Source of the DNA: Halosegnis longus
GTDB taxonomy: Archaea > Halobacteriota > Halobacteria > Halobacteriales > Haloarculaceae
Reading direction: 5' to 3'
Assembly (NCBI RefSeq): GCF_009663395.1
Contig: NZ_QKNW01000001.1
Location: forward strand, 2,046,001-2,110,000
Length of the DNA: 64,000 bases
A model generated the notes under the pieces. The model was not told the origin of the DNA. It did no database searches and saw nothing but the letters and a program-made list of their open reading frames with translations. Within the stretch, counting starts at the first letter, position 1, and every line of letters starts with the position of its first letter. The position numbers and the translations under genes were made by a program. Below are positions 40,819-47,106 of this stretch, one piece after another.

Positions 40819-41295
40819 GTGATTCGACCCTACGACTCGGACGACGCCGACGCGCTGTGGCGACTCAAGCGCGCCTTCGAGACGGCGATGGGCGACACCG
40901 ACGACGAGGCGAAGGCCGAAGCCTACGACGCGAAGCTCACCGACGAGTACCGTGAGGGGTGGCTCGCGTGGGTCCGCCGGTGTACCGACGACGAGGAGTG
41001 CCTGTTCGTCGCCGAGCGCGACGGCGACCTCGTCGGCTACCTGTTTCTCCTCCCCGAACGGCTCGCATTCGTCTGGGACGCCGCGGTCCTGAACGAGGTG
41101 TACGTCACCCCCGACCACCGCGGGACGGGCGTCGCCGACGACCTGATGGAGCGCGGACTGGCCCACGCTCGCGAGCAGTCGCTCCCGCTGGACAGACTCG
41201 TCCTCGACGTGGACGGAGAAAACGACCGTGCGAAGGCGTTCTACGACCGATACGGATTCACGCGCTGGGGAGAGATGGTCGTCCGCGAGCTTTAG
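40819..41295 (+). CDS. GNAT family N-acetyltransferase
   Basis: 158 residues from a GTG start. The acetyl-CoA-binding motif A is LNEVYVTPDHRGTGVADDLM (R/Q-x-x-G-x-G/A type) and the later ENDRAKAFYDRYGF is motif B. It would acetylate an amine on a small molecule or protein; substrate unknown. It converges on the TFS gene; the two stop codons share TTAG (41292-41295). Confidence 0.85.
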   Translation: MIRPYDSDDADALWRLKRAFETAMGDTDDEAKAEAYDAKLTDEYREGWLAWVRRCTDDEECLFVAERDGDLVGYLFLLPERLAFVWDAAVLNEVYVTPDHRGTGVADDLMERGLAHAREQSLPLDRLVLDVDGENDRAKAFYDRYGFTRWGEMVVREL

Positions 41296-41615
41296 CTGTA
41301 CTCGCGCCAGCGGTGGCCACACTCCCTGCACTTGAAAAAGCGCGTCGGCGGCTCGTCGGCGCTGCCGGTCTGTTTGATAGTGTACCACGCGACCCCGTGG
41401 CCACACTCGTCACACCGGACGGTGTCGTCGGTCGGTTTCCCCTCGAAGTTGGCGTCCTCGGTGGTCTCGATGACGTCGCTGTCGTCTTGTGCCTCCGTCG
41501 AGGTGTAGTCCTCGGACAGCGACGCGTCCTTGACGGTCGCGTGGCCACACGACGAACAGACCATCCGGTCACCATCCGTATGCATCATCGAGCCGCACTC
41601 GTCACAAAACTGCAT
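41292..41615 (-). CDS. tfs: Transcription elongation factor TFS (RpoM/TFIIS-like)
   Basis: 107 residues. An N-terminal zinc ribbon (FCDECGSMM ... VCSSCGHA) and a C-terminal one (VRCDECGHG ... FKCRECGHRW) flank a linker. The C-terminal hairpin has the acidic tip in GSADEPPTRFF, the Asp-Glu pair that promotes RNA cleavage by backtracked RNA polymerase. It rescues stalled transcription. Family length is normal. Last gene of a leftward group with 41658 and 42176. Confidence 0.92.
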   Translation of the reverse strand: MQFCDECGSMMHTDGDRMVCSSCGHATVKDASLSEDYTSTEAQDDSDVIETTEDANFEGKPTDDTVRCDECGHGVAWYTIKQTGSADEPPTRFFKCRECGHRWREYS

Positions 41616-41657
41616 ACGGCGGGTTCGGGTACGGACGCCGAAAAGTGCCCGGACACG

Positions 41658-42179
41658 TCACTCGGCGTCGCGCGACCGCATCTGCGTCCGCTCGGTCACG
41701 ATCGGGCAGTCGGTCACGCGCACGTGTTCGAGATCTGTCAGCTCGTGAATCGTCGTCCCGGAGTTTTCACACGCCATCTCGGGGGGTGCGCTGAAGTGTT
41801 CACACTGCTCGCAGTACTGGCTCTTCGGGACGATGACCCCCTCGTCGACCGCCTCGACCTCCTGTAGTTCGAGGAGGTCGCTGTCGGCGTCCGACTCGGG
41901 TTCCTCCTCGATGAGGTCGAACACGTCGGCGTCGTCGAACTCGGAGCCGGTGTCCATCTCGTCGAACACGTCGTCGTCAAGCGGTTCGTCGTCGGGCGTG
42001 TCGAACACCTCCAGCGGGTCGTCACCCGGCGCCGTCTCCGGCGTGTGGTCGGCGCTCCGGAACGGCTCCGCCTCGATATCCACGTCGAGGTCCGTCTCGT
42101 CGTCGGCGTCGATATCGAACTGCTCGTCGAACTCCTCGTCGTTTTCGAACTCCACGTCGAACTCCTCGTCGTCACTCAC
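41658..42179 (-). CDS. Extremely acidic protein with a C-terminal four-Cys motif
   Basis: 173 residues from a GTG start. Residues 1-110 are mostly Asp and Glu with Phe at intervals (DVEFENDEEFDEQFDID), predicted disordered. The C-terminal 60 residues contain SQYCEQCEHF, MACEN and TDCPIV, so four Cys in a C-x2-C ... C ... C arrangement that may bind zinc. No known family recognised. The start overlaps the preceding gene by four bases (GTGA), so the two are coupled. TFS lies 42 bases downstream. Confidence 0.7.
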   Translation of the reverse strand: MSDDEEFDVEFENDEEFDEQFDIDADDETDLDVDIEAEPFRSADHTPETAPGDDPLEVFDTPDDEPLDDDVFDEMDTGSEFDDADVFDLIEEEPESDADSDLLELQEVEAVDEGVIVPKSQYCEQCEHFSAPPEMACENSGTTIHELTDLEHVRVTDCPIVTERTQMRSRDAE

Positions 42180-42865
42180 TGGTCGCTGCTCCCGGCGACC
42201 AGCTTGGGCGTCGAGAAGAAGCCGTTGTTGCCCGTGATGTCGCCGAACTCGGTCGAGCAGTGTGGACAGGCCGGTTCCGACAGCAGGCTGATGTTGACGG
42301 AGTTTCCGCAGGCGCGACAGGTCGCCGTCTCGAAGCCGCGTCGGGCGGCTATCTCACGCAGCTTCGTCAGTCGGTCGTCCTCGCCGTCGCCGTTGGTCTG
42401 CTGTTGGAGACGGACGACCGCGGCCGCGACGCGACGGAGCCGCTGTTGTGTCGTCTCCATCGCCTCGTCGTGGGTCTCGACGGCGCTCGCCAGCTCCTCG
42501 ATGTCCGCCTCCAGCGTCGAGACCGTCTGTGCAATCTCCGTGAGCTGGTCTTCGAGCGTGTCGAACCGGTCGAACTCCTCGTGGTCGTGGTCGGCCGGCG
42601 CTTTCGCCTCCGTCTGTCGCTTGAGCTGGAGCATCCGCGAACGGATGTCGTCGATTTTCTCGTCGAACTCGGACTCCAGGTCGTCGACGCGGACGGAGAG
42701 TTCGTCGCCGTCGCCCTGTTCGAGGGCGCGCTGATTCGCCTCCAGCAGTCGCTCCAGCAGCCGGTCGCGGTCCATCCCGCGTTCGTCGGCCAACCCCTCC
42801 AGCCACGACTCGAGGTCCGGAGGGAGCCGGATGGTAAGTTGGCTACTGTCGGACTCTGTGGCCAT
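42176..42865 (-). CDS. Ribbon-helix-helix / coiled-coil / zinc-ribbon protein
   Basis: 229 residues in three parts. Residues 9-45 (LTIRLPPDLESWLEGLADERG) look like a ribbon-helix-helix DNA-binding domain. Residues 50-165 are a long coiled coil rich in Leu, Glu and Gln. Residues 175-215 hold CRACGNSV and CPHCSTEF, a four-Cys zinc ribbon. This design suggests a DNA-bound oligomeric regulator or chromosome protein. No target known. It is coupled to the acidic protein gene. Confidence 0.72.
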   Translation of the reverse strand: MATESDSSQLTIRLPPDLESWLEGLADERGMDRDRLLERLLEANQRALEQGDGDELSVRVDDLESEFDEKIDDIRSRMLQLKRQTEAKAPADHDHEEFDRFDTLEDQLTEIAQTVSTLEADIEELASAVETHDEAMETTQQRLRRVAAAVVRLQQQTNGDGEDDRLTKLREIAARRGFETATCRACGNSVNISLLSEPACPHCSTEFGDITGNNGFFSTPKLVAGSSDQ

Positions 42866-42928
42866 CTTGACACTGCTTGGAACCGACCGACAAAAAGGAT
42901 TCGGCTAACTAACACGCCGTGACGACGG

Positions 42929-43765
42929 TTACCGGATTTTGCGCACGTCGCTGATATCGAAGCCCGCATCGCCGATTTCGGTCTCGAACTGGACGATATC
43001 TTCGTCTTCGATGGCCGAGAGGATGCCGCGGAACTGCCGGACGACGAGCGTCCGCGCCCGGGTCGACCCGCCCGACTCCCACTCGAAGAGGAACGAGCCG
43101 TCCGCGGCGTCCACCAGCTGGCCGTGGCGTTCGGTCGACAGCGTCTCGTGGTTCAGGAGAACGAGTACCAGTCCGCCCCACTCGTAGGCTGCCCGGGTGA
43201 TGCCCTTCAGCAGCTTCGGGATGTCGGCCCACGACATATCCTCGCCGGCGGCGCTGATGAGGTCGGTCAGCGAGTCGATGACGACCAGGTTCTCGGTGGC
43301 GTGGTCGGACAGGACGTCGCCGAGCGCCTCGGGGACCGTCGAGCGGTCCTCGTCGCCGCCGAGGCTCGTGATGCTCGCGGTCCGGTTCGAGTACCAGTCG
43401 CGGGGCACTGGGGAGATACGGAAGTACTCGGTCGAGAGGTCGTGGAAGGTGATGTTCTCGGTCGCCGCGTCGGTGATTTCCTCGTCGAGGACGAACTCCA
43501 TCTCCCGTCGGAGCCGCGGCCCCTCGGCGGTAAAGGAGATGTAGTGGATGTTCGGGGCCGGCTGTGTCCCCTCCGTCACCTCGCCGTAGTAGAGGTCGAA
43601 CAGGTCCTCGTCGACGGCCTGGAGCGCGTTCATCGCCGCCGACGTGTAGGCGAACTCCCGCGCGCCCGCCCCCGCCTCGCCGGAGAGCAGTACGAGACTA
43701 CCGGCCGGCGCTCCCCCGCCGATGGTGGTGTCGAGCCGACGGATGCCGAACGGGATACGTCTCAT
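42929..43765 (-). CDS. RecA/KaiC-like (HTR-like) protein with degenerate Walker A
   Basis: 278 residues. The start (RRIPFGIRRLDTTIGGGAPAGSLVLLSGEAGAG) and Walker B (LVVIDSLTDL) are those of the RadA/KaiC/HTR-like ATPases. At the P-loop, GEAGAGAR (29-36) replaces the usual GxxGxGKT: the essential Lys is Ala35 and the Thr/Ser is Arg36. ATP hydrolysis is therefore doubtful. ERHGQLVDAADGSFLFEWESGG and RTLVVRQFRG in the C-terminal part are well conserved in haloarchaeal HTR-like proteins. Chosen ATG follows a TATA-like TTTAAC on the minus strand about 27 bases upstream. Confidence 0.8.
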   Translation of the reverse strand: MRRIPFGIRRLDTTIGGGAPAGSLVLLSGEAGAGAREFAYTSAAMNALQAVDEDLFDLYYGEVTEGTQPAPNIHYISFTAEGPRLRREMEFVLDEEITDAATENITFHDLSTEYFRISPVPRDWYSNRTASITSLGGDEDRSTVPEALGDVLSDHATENLVVIDSLTDLISAAGEDMSWADIPKLLKGITRAAYEWGGLVLVLLNHETLSTERHGQLVDAADGSFLFEWESGGSTRARTLVVRQFRGILSAIEDEDIVQFETEIGDAGFDISDVRKIR

Positions 43766-43805: not shown

Positions 43806-44768
43806 TCACTCAACGCGCGCGCCGGCGTTCGCGACACCGACCGTTTCGACGCTGCCTGCGACGCCGACAGCATCGAGCGCTGCTTCTCCGGCCTCCCGAG
43901 CCGCCCGCTCGCGGCTCGCGTCGGTGATGCCGTACACGGCCGGTCCCCACGACGACTGGCCGACGCCGCTGAGTGCCGCGCTGGCTTCGAGTTCGTCGAC
44001 CAGTGCGCCCGCGGGCGGCCGGTAGACGCCGCCTTGTGCGTCCGTGTACCACGTCCCGTTGCGTCGGTCGAAGGCGGTTACGGCCCGTCCGAACGGCTCG
44101 CACTCGCCGGCAGCGACGGCAGGGAGGAGTCGCCGCGTCAGGATGCCGGCGAGCTCGTCGGCGAGGTCGGGGTCGGCCCGTTCGACCGCCGCACGCATCG
44201 AGGCGTCTTCGGTCTCGCCCGACCGGCCGGCGTCGGCGTCCGGATAGACGAGCAGGACGCGCCACGACTCGGGCAGGTCGCGGCGCACGACGACCGGCGG
44301 GACGGTCCACGAGCCGTCCTCTGGCGTGTCGGTCGTGAACCGCGTCGTCGGGTGGCCGGCGTCGACGACGAAGCCGCCCCGCTCGAAGGTGGCGACACCG
44401 ACCCCCGACCGACCGCCGCGGCCGAGCGCCGGGGCGCGCTCGCGAACCCGCGGCTCGCGGTCGTACGTCTCTGCGACGGCTGTGAGGGTTGCGAGTGCAA
44501 TCTGTGTCCCCGAGCCGAGACCGACGTGGCGGGGGAGCCGCTCTGTGACCGTGAGGTCGACGCCGGGCACGTCGAGCAGGTCACAGGCCGCGGTCGCGTA
44601 CTCGGCGACGAGGGTGTCGGTACACCGGACGCTGTCTGCCCGCGTCGCCTCGATGCTGACGCGGGGGCGGTCGAGCGCGAAGCCGACGCCGCCGTAGAGC
44701 CGCTCGTGTGACAGCGAGAGGTTCTGGAAGCCGACGTGGATGCGCGCGCCGGCCGAGACGCGGGTCAT
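43806..44768 (-). CDS. GHMP-superfamily protein, beta-ribofuranosylaminobenzene 5'-phosphate synthase-like
   Basis: 320 residues. The beginning (RVSAGARIHVGFQNLSLSHERLYGGVG) and the glycine-rich LPRHVGLGSGTQIALATLTA match archaeal beta-RFAP synthases, which join PRPP and 4-hydroxybenzoate or p-aminobenzoate in tetrahydromethanopterin synthesis. SGVGQSSWGPAVYGI near the C-terminus is also conserved. What haloarchaea, which use folate-type cofactors, make with it is not settled. Leftward, 40 bases ahead of the RecA-like gene. Confidence 0.85.
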   Translation of the reverse strand: MTRVSAGARIHVGFQNLSLSHERLYGGVGFALDRPRVSIEATRADSVRCTDTLVAEYATAACDLLDVPGVDLTVTERLPRHVGLGSGTQIALATLTAVAETYDREPRVRERAPALGRGGRSGVGVATFERGGFVVDAGHPTTRFTTDTPEDGSWTVPPVVVRRDLPESWRVLLVYPDADAGRSGETEDASMRAAVERADPDLADELAGILTRRLLPAVAAGECEPFGRAVTAFDRRNGTWYTDAQGGVYRPPAGALVDELEASAALSGVGQSSWGPAVYGITDASRERAAREAGEAALDAVGVAGSVETVGVANAGARVE

Positions 44769-44865: not shown

Positions 44866-45345
44866 ATGAAACACCTCCCGAAGCATCTCCGCCAGCGGTG
44901 GCGGTATCTCGCCGTCGCGGTCGAGAGCTGGCCGGACGCCGACCTCTCGCGCGGGGCGTTCCAGCGCGACCTCTGGTATGCCGCTCAGAACCTGCTCGGC
45001 GACACCGGGAGCGCCGACGCCGACCTCACGGTGTACGGGTTCGAATTCGAGGACGGCCGGGGCCACGCTGTCGTTCGGGTCCGTCGCGGTGAAGTGGAAC
45101 GAGCGCGGGCAGCCCTCGCCTGTGTGACAGAAATCGACGGGAACCCCGTCGGGGTGCGGGTCACCGGCGTCTCGGGGACAGTGCGAGCCTGTGAGGAAAG
45201 GTATATACAACGTCCGCAGGTACATCGGACAACGAGACAGGTCGCCCTCGACGGTGTGGACCGTCGGGCCGTCGTCCGCCCGCCGCGGGTCGATGCGCGC
45301 GTCGGCGACGGCCACGTGGGGGCGACCGACCTCGATTGCGAGTAA
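44866..45345 (+). CDS. rnp2: RNase P protein component 2 (Pop5)
   Basis: 159 residues. MKHLPKHLRQRWRYLAVAVES and ALACVTEIDGNPVGVRVTGVSGTVRACEERYI are typical of archaeal Pop5, which with Rpp30 activates the RNase P RNA for tRNA 5' maturation. Residues 115-159 after the Pop5 core are an Arg/Val-rich extension. The stop is two bases before the proteasome alpha start, an arrangement common in archaea. Confidence 0.88.
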   Translation: MKHLPKHLRQRWRYLAVAVESWPDADLSRGAFQRDLWYAAQNLLGDTGSADADLTVYGFEFEDGRGHAVVRVRRGEVERARAALACVTEIDGNPVGVRVTGVSGTVRACEERYIQRPQVHRTTRQVALDGVDRRAVVRPPRVDARVGDGHVGATDLDCE

Positions 45346-45347
45346 CT

Positions 45348-46097
45348 ATGCAGGGCCAATCTCAACAGCAGGCGTACGACCGGGGGATAACCATCTTCTC
45401 GCCGGACGGTCGCCTCTACCAAGTCGAGTACGCACGTGAGGCAGTCAAACGCGGCTCCGCCAGCATCGGCGTCCGCACCGCAGACGGGGTCGTCCTCGTC
45501 GTCGACAAGCGGTCGCGCTCGCCGCTGATGGAGGCGTCTTCCGTCGAGAAGCTCCACAAGGCCGACGACCACGTCGGCGTCGCGAGCGCCGGCCACGTCG
45601 CCGACGCGCGCCAGCTCATCGACTTCGCGCGCCGACAGGCGCAGGTGAGCCGGCTCCGCTACGGCGAGCCGGTCGGCGTCGAACAGCTCACGAAGAACAT
45701 CACCGACCACATCCAGCAGTACACGCAGGTCGGGGGCGCGCGCCCGTTCGGCGTCGCGCTCATCGTCGGCGGCATCGAGGACGGACAGCCGCGACTGTTC
45801 GAGACGGACCCCTCGGGCACGCCGTACGAGTGGCAGGCGCTCGCCGTCGGCGAGGACCGCGGTGAACTCAACGACTACCTCGAAGACCACTACGCCGACG
45901 ACCTCACGCTGGAGGAGGGCGTCGAACTCGGGCTGGCCGCGCTCGCGTCGGTCAACGACGACGGGCTCGACCCCGAAGGCGTCGGCGTCGCGACAATCGA
46001 CGCCGAGACCGAGCGGTACGTCGACCTGACGGACGACGAAATCGAGCGCCACCTCGCCGACCACGACCTGCTCGCGAGCGACGACGACGAGGAGTAA
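45348..46097 (+). CDS. psmA: 20S proteasome alpha subunit
   Basis: 249 residues. The alpha-type N-terminal helix motif YDRGITIFSPDGRLYQVEYA is intact, followed by AVKRGSASIGVRTADGVVL and GVASAGHVADARQLID. Alpha rings gate the proteolytic chamber and contact PAN-type ATPases. The tail DDDEE is acidic. Two bases behind rnp2, so one operon. Confidence 0.94.
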   Translation: MQGQSQQQAYDRGITIFSPDGRLYQVEYAREAVKRGSASIGVRTADGVVLVVDKRSRSPLMEASSVEKLHKADDHVGVASAGHVADARQLIDFARRQAQVSRLRYGEPVGVEQLTKNITDHIQQYTQVGGARPFGVALIVGGIEDGQPRLFETDPSGTPYEWQALAVGEDRGELNDYLEDHYADDLTLEEGVELGLAALASVNDDGLDPEGVGVATIDAETERYVDLTDDEIERHLADHDLLASDDDEE

Positions 46098-46139
46098 CCT
46101 CACCGAGCGATTTTTGTCGAGACGCACGCCACGAGCAGT

Positions 46140-46307
46140 ATGGACTACAAGGACCTCGTTACCATCTCGCTGGCCGTCCTCTGTGCCATCGGCGGCGGGA
46201 CGGTCGCCGGGGGTCTCGGCGTCTTCCTCGGTGTCGTCGTCGGGGCCGGAGTCGGGGCGACGTGGGCATACCAGACCGACCTGTGGGCGGCGGCGCTCGC
46301 GGAGTGA
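46140..46307 (+). CDS. Small Gly-rich membrane protein (55 residues)
   Basis: Starts MDYKDLVTISLAVLCAIGGG and is mostly two short Gly/Val/Leu-rich hydrophobic stretches separated by GG turns, ending YQTDLWAAALAE. Codons follow the haloarchaeal GC bias. It lies alone between psmA and the SBDS gene with a T-rich promoter-like GATTTTTG about 30 bases upstream. Function unknown; the glycine zipper pattern suggests helix packing. Confidence 0.6.
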   Translation: MDYKDLVTISLAVLCAIGGGTVAGGLGVFLGVVVGAGVGATWAYQTDLWAAALAE

Positions 46308-46335
46308 GCCGAGCCGACACCGCGGCGAACACACC

Positions 46336-46341
46336 TTTTAG
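46336..46341 (+). promoter_or_regulatory. TATA box of the SBDS gene
   Basis: TTTTAG in ACACCTTTTAGAGG, about 28 bases before the ATG at 46366. Confidence 0.5.
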
Positions 46342-46365
46342 AGGGTCACCCGCGTACCGATAGGT

Positions 46366-47106
46366 ATGATTTCACTCGACGACGCGGTGACCGCCCAACT
46401 GGAGTCACACGGCGAACGGTTCGAGGTGCTCGTCGACCCGGACGCCGCCCTCGCAATCAAGCGGGGCACCTTCGACGAGGAGTTCGAGGGACAGGAGCTC
46501 GAAGACGTCATCGCCGCCGAAGACGTGTTCGAGGACGCCGCCGCGGGCGACCGCCCGCCCGAGTCGGCGCTCGAAGAGGTGTTCGGCACGACCGACCCGA
46601 TGGAGATTATCCCCGAGGTAATCAAGCGCGGTGAGATTCAGATCACCGCAGAACAGCGCCGCGAGATGCAGGAGCAAAAGCGCAAACGGCTCATCAACAT
46701 CATCGCGCGAAACGGCATCAACCCACAGCAGAACGACACGCCACACCCGCCCGAGCGTATCGACCGCGCGCTGGAGGAGGCCGGCTACACCGTCGACCCG
46801 ATGACGCCCGCCCAACAGCAGGTGGACGACGCGCTCGACGCGCTCCGGCCCGTGATTCCGATTCGGTTCGAGGAGATAACCGTCGCCGCCCAGCTGCCGG
46901 CCGACTACGCCGGCTCCGGACAGGCGAAGGTGCGCGAGTTCGGCGACCTCGAACGCGAGGAGTGGCAAAACGACGGCTCGTGGGTCGGCGTCGTCACGTT
47001 CCCGGCCGGGATGCAAAACGAGTTCTACGAGCTGGTGAACGAGGTGTCGTCGGGCGAAGCAGAGACGCGGGTCGTGAAAGACAAAGACGAGTTGGCGACG
47101 CGGTGA
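46366..47106 (+). CDS. Ribosome maturation protein SBDS/SDO1
   Basis: 246 residues, the three SBDS domains. ERFEVLVDPDAALAIKRGTFD is in the N-terminal FYSH domain; RREMQEQKRKRLINIIARNGINPQ starts the helical middle domain; HPPERIDRALEEAGYTVDP leads to a ferredoxin-like C-terminal domain. It works in late maturation of the large ribosomal subunit. Commonly near proteasome and exosome genes in archaea. The stop is directly next to the convergent FUN14 stop. Confidence 0.93.
   Translation: MISLDDAVTAQLESHGERFEVLVDPDAALAIKRGTFDEEFEGQELEDVIAAEDVFEDAAAGDRPPESALEEVFGTTDPMEIIPEVIKRGEIQITAEQRREMQEQKRKRLINIIARNGINPQQNDTPHPPERIDRALEEAGYTVDPMTPAQQQVDDALDALRPVIPIRFEEITVAAQLPADYAGSGQAKVREFGDLEREEWQNDGSWVGVVTFPAGMQNEFYELVNEVSSGEAETRVVKDKDELATR

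Follow-up and report, generated by a model that had tools for sequence, protein, structure and literature searches.

A KaiC-like pseudoenzyme and two partner genes are inherited together with the PilB3-type pilus in Halobacteria

Do four closely spaced genes of the haloarchaeon Halosegnis longus act as one unit, and what would such a unit serve? The genes lie in a 64,000-nucleotide (nt) stretch of DNA, here called the window (positions 2,046,001-2,110,000 of the forward strand of contig NZ_QKNW01000001.1, assembly GCF_009663395.1). Four minus-strand open reading frames fill positions 41292-43765 of the window exactly, as the initial annotation of this DNA had correctly described. From upstream to downstream, they encode a KaiC/ArlH-type RecA-fold protein without a catalytic P-loop (pseudo-KaiC; 42929-43765, 278 amino acids), a protein with a ribbon-helix-helix (RHH)-type N-terminus, a long coiled coil and a C-terminal zinc ribbon (RHH/coiled-coil/zinc protein; 42176-42865, 229 amino acids), an acidic protein with four conserved cysteines (acidic Cys4 protein; 41658-42179, 173 amino acids, GTG start) and the transcript-cleavage factor TFS (41292-41615, 107 amino acids; TIGR01384, 75.3 bits against a cut-off of 64.75). 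That annotation had proposed a nucleoid- or transcription-linked complex comprising all four. We found that the first three genes, hereafter the trio, form a real unit and that TFS is only their neighbor. The trio is probably a cytoplasmic accessory or regulatory module of the PilB3-PilC3 type IV pilus; its link to the pilus is well supported, and we infer the molecular mechanism.

The gene-order comparison across Halobacteria that had been suggested with the annotation was carried out on a sample of 145 genomes, in which presence was defined as a match at E≤0.001. Order was read in 121 loci, from the window and from 120 of the other 144 genomes, with the remaining 24 left uncounted for order. 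The neighborhoods spanned 16 kb (some were shorter) and were centered on TFS, except that the trio was taken as the center if TFS is located away from it, and genes were assigned by hidden Markov model searches. Pseudo-KaiC was matched in 122 genomes, the RHH/coiled-coil/zinc protein in 121, the acidic protein in 120 and TFS in all 145. The full order pseudo-KaiC/RHH/acidic/TFS was present in 74 of the 121 loci, and the trio stood in tandem in 83, showing that the order is kept far across the class and more often than by chance; 11 more loci contained RHH-acidic-TFS. The RHH and acidic genes were adjacent and co-oriented in all 96 loci holding both. In the window, the GTG of the acidic gene and the TGA of the coiled-coil gene share a 4-nt overlap (42176-42179, minus strand), and 88 of 96 relatives had a start candidate for the acidic gene from 17 nt before to 7 nt after the end of the upstream gene, which bears out the translational coupling claimed for this pair. 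The median gaps along the four genes, with starts chosen by rule, were 84, -4 and 49 nt. The RHH-acidic pair occurred without pseudo-KaiC in 13 loci, and pseudo-KaiC stood apart at the 13 loci retrieved for it in those genomes, with a GHMP kinase gene just upstream in at least five of them.

All three trio genes were missing from 22 of the 145 genomes. TFS is not a functional member of the unit, because it is universal, stays after trio loss and is not on the same strand beside the trio in 9 of the 83 tandem-trio loci (eight without TFS in the stretch, one with TFS on the opposite strand). The upstream border of the trio in the window is a beta-RFAP-synthase-like GHMP kinase gene (43806-44768, minus strand; TIGR00144, 163.9 bits), and the kinase gene lay directly upstream of pseudo-KaiC in 62 of the 67 loci in which the two genes share a strand. 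In the trio-negative loci, the kinase was found upstream of TFS on the same strand in 17 of 22, within 250 nt in 11, as expected of an empty site. The kinase was rejected as a trio member, because at least 17 of the 22 trio-negative loci retain it. Hence, of the conserved and undescribed module of four genes that had been suggested, the trio stands as conserved and apparently undescribed, and TFS drops out.

A few genomes needed a decision on trio status. Filed as trio-positive were G121, whose acidic gene falls at the end of a contig, G066, in which pseudo-KaiC is split and a search for the RHH gene found none, and G021, which has pseudo-KaiC alone. G119 was filed as trio-negative despite an N-terminal coiled-coil fragment (locus L178), which lies between the GHMP kinase and TFS, with the pseudo-KaiC and acidic genes gone. 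Weak matches to the RHH/coiled-coil/zinc protein in G014 (28% identity, E 9.8e-11) and G073 (E 6.7e-4) were judged, without a reciprocal check, to be unrelated coiled coils and were left out of the counts.

The distribution of the trio followed that of the pilus ATPase PilB3. When scored against a strong match to PilB3_C (PF23989), both were present in 122 genomes and both absent from 22, one genome (G144) had the trio without PilB3, and none had PilB3 without the trio (phi 0.97). The best PilB3_C match was at E≤5.6e-14 in every trio-positive genome but G144, and it was never better than 5.1e-11 in the 22 trio-negative genomes. A full-length PilB3 model scored 694-1091 bits in trio-positive and at most 635 bits in trio-negative genomes, G144 and G025 (PilB3 broken across contig ends) apart. 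An intact KaiC of family TIGR03880, counted when over the cut-off, behaved in the same way: it was present with the trio in 121 genomes, absent with it from 22, missing alone from two (G066 and G144) and never present without the trio. The association with ArlH (FlaH), the archaellum motor accessory, was much weaker (phi 0.37), with both present in 103 genomes, both absent from 13, only the trio absent from 9 and only ArlH absent from 20; the window's own genome contains the trio and lacks ArlH.

Kinship was taken into account with a tree built on TFS and the kinase, which implies at least 12 changes in trio state. Across seven supported independent contrasts, PilB3 and TIGR03880 each shared the direction of the trio's change in an average of 6.8 of 7 and went against it in none (p ~0.016); the ArlH control gave 3.6 of 7. 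The archaellum was thus rejected as the main partner by the ArlH test, both across the 145 genomes and on the tree contrasts. The trio is kept or lost with the PilB3-type pilus, and therefore its products are probably unrecognized accessory parts or regulators of that pilus.

The arrangement outside Halobacteria was examined in a phylum sample of 246 Halobacteriota genomes, using a pseudo-KaiC profile at E≤1e-20 and TIGR03880 at E≤1e-60. Pseudo-KaiC was found in 73 non-haloarchaeal genomes, and a TIGR03880 KaiC lay directly downstream on the same strand in 71 of them, that is, in all 71 of those having TIGR03880. None of the listed non-haloarchaeal TIGR03880 genomes was without pseudo-KaiC. 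At least 35 of the 73 genomes had a PilB3-like ATPase gene divergent from pseudo-KaiC and no more than 3.1 kb away. In all 20 non-haloarchaeal loci that were read, a second KaiC-like gene was directly downstream of pseudo-KaiC; it belongs to TIGR03880 (315 bits for L349), and its Walker A motif was intact in the loci printed, except in L361 (loop GTGRT). Several of these 20 loci also hold a T2SSE ATPase gene (PilB3_C in L349 and L358) and a T2SSF protein gene, and L345 holds an archaeal pilin gene. In Halobacteria, one genome (G021, family f5; locus L236, G021:C2:84757-100757) has pseudo-KaiC followed by an intact TIGR03880 KaiC, as in methanogens, and has no RHH or acidic genes, an adjacency that ties the haloarchaeal and non-haloarchaeal arrangements together. 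It was the only genome seen in the class with the two genes side by side; elsewhere they are encoded apart.

The haloarchaeal TIGR03880 KaiC (L377, L385 and L388) carries an acidic, low-complexity N-terminal extension of ~100 amino acids, and the methanogen versions are without it. An identity of this KaiC with one of CirA-D of H. volcanii was considered; the sizes given for CirA-D in PMC3941300 (27.5-52.7 kDa) do not obviously fit the frames read.

Pseudo-KaiC of the window matched the KaiC family PF06745 with 28.8 bits (cut-off 26.6), and all 40 aligned homologues matched KaiC at E≤0.01. Its AlphaFold model, with a predicted local distance difference test (pLDDT) score of 85.8, resembled KaiC 8dba (VIA-align Z 23.3; root-mean-square deviation (rmsd) 2.5 over 214 residues) and FlaH/ArlH (Z 22.1 for 4wia and 21.5 for 4yds). 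The initial annotation had called this protein a degenerate ATPase, and the homologues confirmed it. The Walker A motif, GEAGAGAREF (residues 29-38; 43652-43681, minus strand), has its Lys replaced, and position 35 was Lys in none of 85 haloarchaeal homologues, being Ala in 73, Ser in 6, Gly in 5 and a gap in 1. R36 was kept in 83 of the 85, and the motif mostly read G[E/D]xGAG[A/S/G]REF, departing from the intact GxxxxGK[T/S]. The Walker B Asp 164 was retained in all 85. The catalytic Glu pair was missing, with Thr at aligned position 79 in 80 of the 85 and a variable position 80 (equivalence judged by eye). The 20 non-haloarchaeal pseudo-KaiC loci likewise lacked the Lys, by eye, in the P-loops printed for them. 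Pseudo-KaiC is therefore predicted from its sequence to be a protein of KaiC/ArlH fold unable to hydrolyze ATP in the usual way. Its closest named match was in Halosegnis rubeus, at 94% identity. A second pseudo-KaiC paralogue, 31-33% identical, was present in eight genomes of genus g3 (e.g. G016:C26:23959-24792), with partial matches in three g5 genomes.

The model of the RHH/coiled-coil/zinc protein (pLDDT 87.0; predicted template modeling score 0.39) shows RHH helices, a pair of long helices and a Cys4 ribbon. A Foldseek search with the model gave no match at E≤0.001. The top PDB matches of the N-terminus were CopG and Arc, over a short stretch at E ~0.6, and the CopG match had an rmsd of 1.0 over 39 columns with a Foldseek E of only 0.67. 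Matches to SMC/Rad50/SKA1 and other coiled coils were taken as composition and set aside. The best-conserved parts were the coil motif DVRxRVxQVKRE..KAPADHxH and the zinc ribbon (42257-42319, minus strand), not the RHH strand; C183, C186, C200 and C203 of the ribbon were invariant in the homologue alignment (A3), and the pattern CxxC..CPxC was present in 93 of 97 homologues. Pfam RHH_1 matched only 4 of 38 homologues at E≤0.01. An N-terminal Trp, a rough marker of the RHH module, was missing in 19 of 97, at least two of which (L159 and L160) may have the Trp shifted by an N-terminal extension or by start choice. The RHH strand positions, judged by eye, were not basic in most rows of the same alignment. 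As a label read from such features, "DNA-binding" is weak for this protein. The gene was strongly shortened in L201 and L204 (genomes G025 and G091; genus g12), with matches of 43 and 42 bits and with ~82 amino acids left in L201, comprising the RHH part and an acidic tail.

These features bear on the main rival explanation, in which the trio would regulate the transcription of pilin or pilus genes, with the RHH protein sitting on pilus promoters and the KaiC pair sensing a state and switching. The same co-inheritance of the trio with PilB3 and the RHH-type fold at the N-terminus of the coiled-coil protein are consistent with this explanation, as are the regulatory roles of KaiC relatives, for example in gas vesicles, described in the portion of PMC4858521 available. 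It is nonetheless unlikely: the RHH_1 matches are few, the N-terminal marker is often missing and the strand is mostly not basic, and the pseudo-KaiC/KaiC pair adjoins pilus genes in lineages in which no RHH protein was found.

No Pfam family matched the acidic Cys4 protein. C123, C126, C137 and C158 were present in all 98 of its homologues, and the motif CxxC...PPxxxC...CP (41706-41813, minus strand) was found in 97 of 98. The initial annotation had likened this protein to a nucleic-acid mimic on account of its acidity, which is the sole basis of the comparison; the acidic stretch varies in length, and the conserved part is the C-terminal Cys4 motif together with a Trp.

In the role that we favor for the trio at the PilB3-PilC3 pilus, pseudo-KaiC would be an ArlH-like docking or regulatory subunit at the motor, and the intact TIGR03880 KaiC, its adjacent partner in other Halobacteriota, would act with it and modulate it. 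The RHH/coiled-coil/zinc protein and the coupled acidic Cys4 protein would have been added in Halobacteria and would most likely form one complex. At the archaellum, ArlCDE are the cytosolic companions of ArlH; by analogy, the RHH-acidic complex may be an adaptor that connects the two KaiC proteins to the motor or positions them. Within this role, we infer that the proteins physically touch the motor, that they assemble into a complex, and which way the regulation runs. More tentatively, the pair of a pseudoenzyme and an enzyme KaiC may be of ancient origin and dedicated to the control of PilB3-type pili in Halobacteriota, a unit to which Halobacteria added a coiled-coil/zinc and acidic Cys4 adaptor, yielding a counterpart of the ArlH-ArlCDE apparatus.

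Several observations weigh against such a role. None of the haloarchaeal loci read showed pilB3 next to the trio. No convincing homologue of the RHH or acidic gene was found in the 20 non-haloarchaeal loci read, so that the pilus link of these two genes is drawn solely from co-inheritance and operon linkage. Genome G144 is a true exception, keeping the trio without PilB3 or an intact KaiC. G066, which has a broken trio and lacks the intact KaiC, retains a PilB3 whose match leaves out the first 126 positions of the model. G025 and G091, with their shortened coiled-coil gene, retain the rest of the trio and PilB3. These four genomes look like stages of decay. Moreover, Fisher values ignore kinship, and the tree-based p is only ~0.016.

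An indirect link, in which the trio would serve another trait (surface life, cell shape or polarity) that tends to be lost with PilB3 pili, draws on there being just seven well-supported independent contrasts and on an ArlH association that is weaker but real; the physical linkage of pseudo-KaiC to PilB3-like genes in other Halobacteriota argues against it, and we consider it improbable. The nucleoid- or transcription-linked complex including TFS could appeal to TFS lying directly next in the 74 full-order loci and in the 11 RHH-acidic-TFS loci, to the RHH fold and to the acidic partner, but it is very improbable, because TFS persists in the 22 genomes without the trio and is absent from the stretch or opposite in nine tandem-trio loci, pilus genes surround pseudo-KaiC outside Halobacteria, and co-inheritance and synteny point to PilB3-type pili, with nothing beyond the adjacency of TFS in favor of such a complex.

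Around the four-gene run, a GNAT acetyltransferase gene lies downstream and is convergent to it. The plus strand of the window at 44866-47106 may carry RNase P Rnp2-like, PsmA proteasome alpha and SBDS-like genes next door. A second TFIIS zinc-ribbon gene (56.6 bits) is present in the window's own genome at L002 (G000:C1:2011862-2014981). Two convergent TFS-like genes were observed in L180 of G014, a genome without the trio, a TIGR03880 KaiC or any PilB3_C match.

What is known of archaeal type IV pili concerns chiefly their ATPase, membrane platform and pilins. Neither the trio nor its loss together with PilB3 was found described in the PMC open literature searched, and a prior mention is possible. 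If the proposed role is correct, the main adhesive pilus of haloarchaea includes three or four conserved cytosolic proteins that so far lack a name, a filament motor is served jointly by an active KaiC and one that has lost catalysis, and genes left without a specific family in protein-family libraries would have a function. The control of archaeal pili and archaella in one cell would then be testable in Haloferax volcanii, for which pilB3 mutants exist.

Among known systems, KaiC-family ATPases of Methanomicrobia type IV pilus loci (arCOG01172 and arCOG01173) could, according to the portion of PMC4858521 available, be co-transcribed with VirB11/TadC. These likewise are KaiC-like genes beside PilB/TadC-type genes; that portion of the paper makes no mention of a lost P-loop, of a pairing of pseudo-KaiC with KaiC, of the trio of haloarchaea or of its co-loss with PilB3. 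A type IV pilus coiled-coil protein is likened there to the HP0958 type, a coiled-coil hairpin with a Zn ribbon. The RHH/coiled-coil/zinc protein shares with that type a coiled coil followed by a zinc ribbon and a filament-linked role, an analogy of architecture in which no sequence match was seen. KaiC_arch_3 (TIGR03880) shares the KaiC domain with pseudo-KaiC and is its genomic partner, but differs in its intact Walker A and is a separate family. ArlH has in common with pseudo-KaiC the KaiC/RecA fold and a proposed accessory role at a type IV filament machine. Unlike ArlH, whose family model (NF052589) it matches with 42.8 bits against a cut-off of 215, pseudo-KaiC has lost the P-loop Lys, goes with PilB3 pili rather than with archaella, and is accompanied by a further KaiC as partner and, in Halobacteria, by a coiled-coil and an acidic protein.

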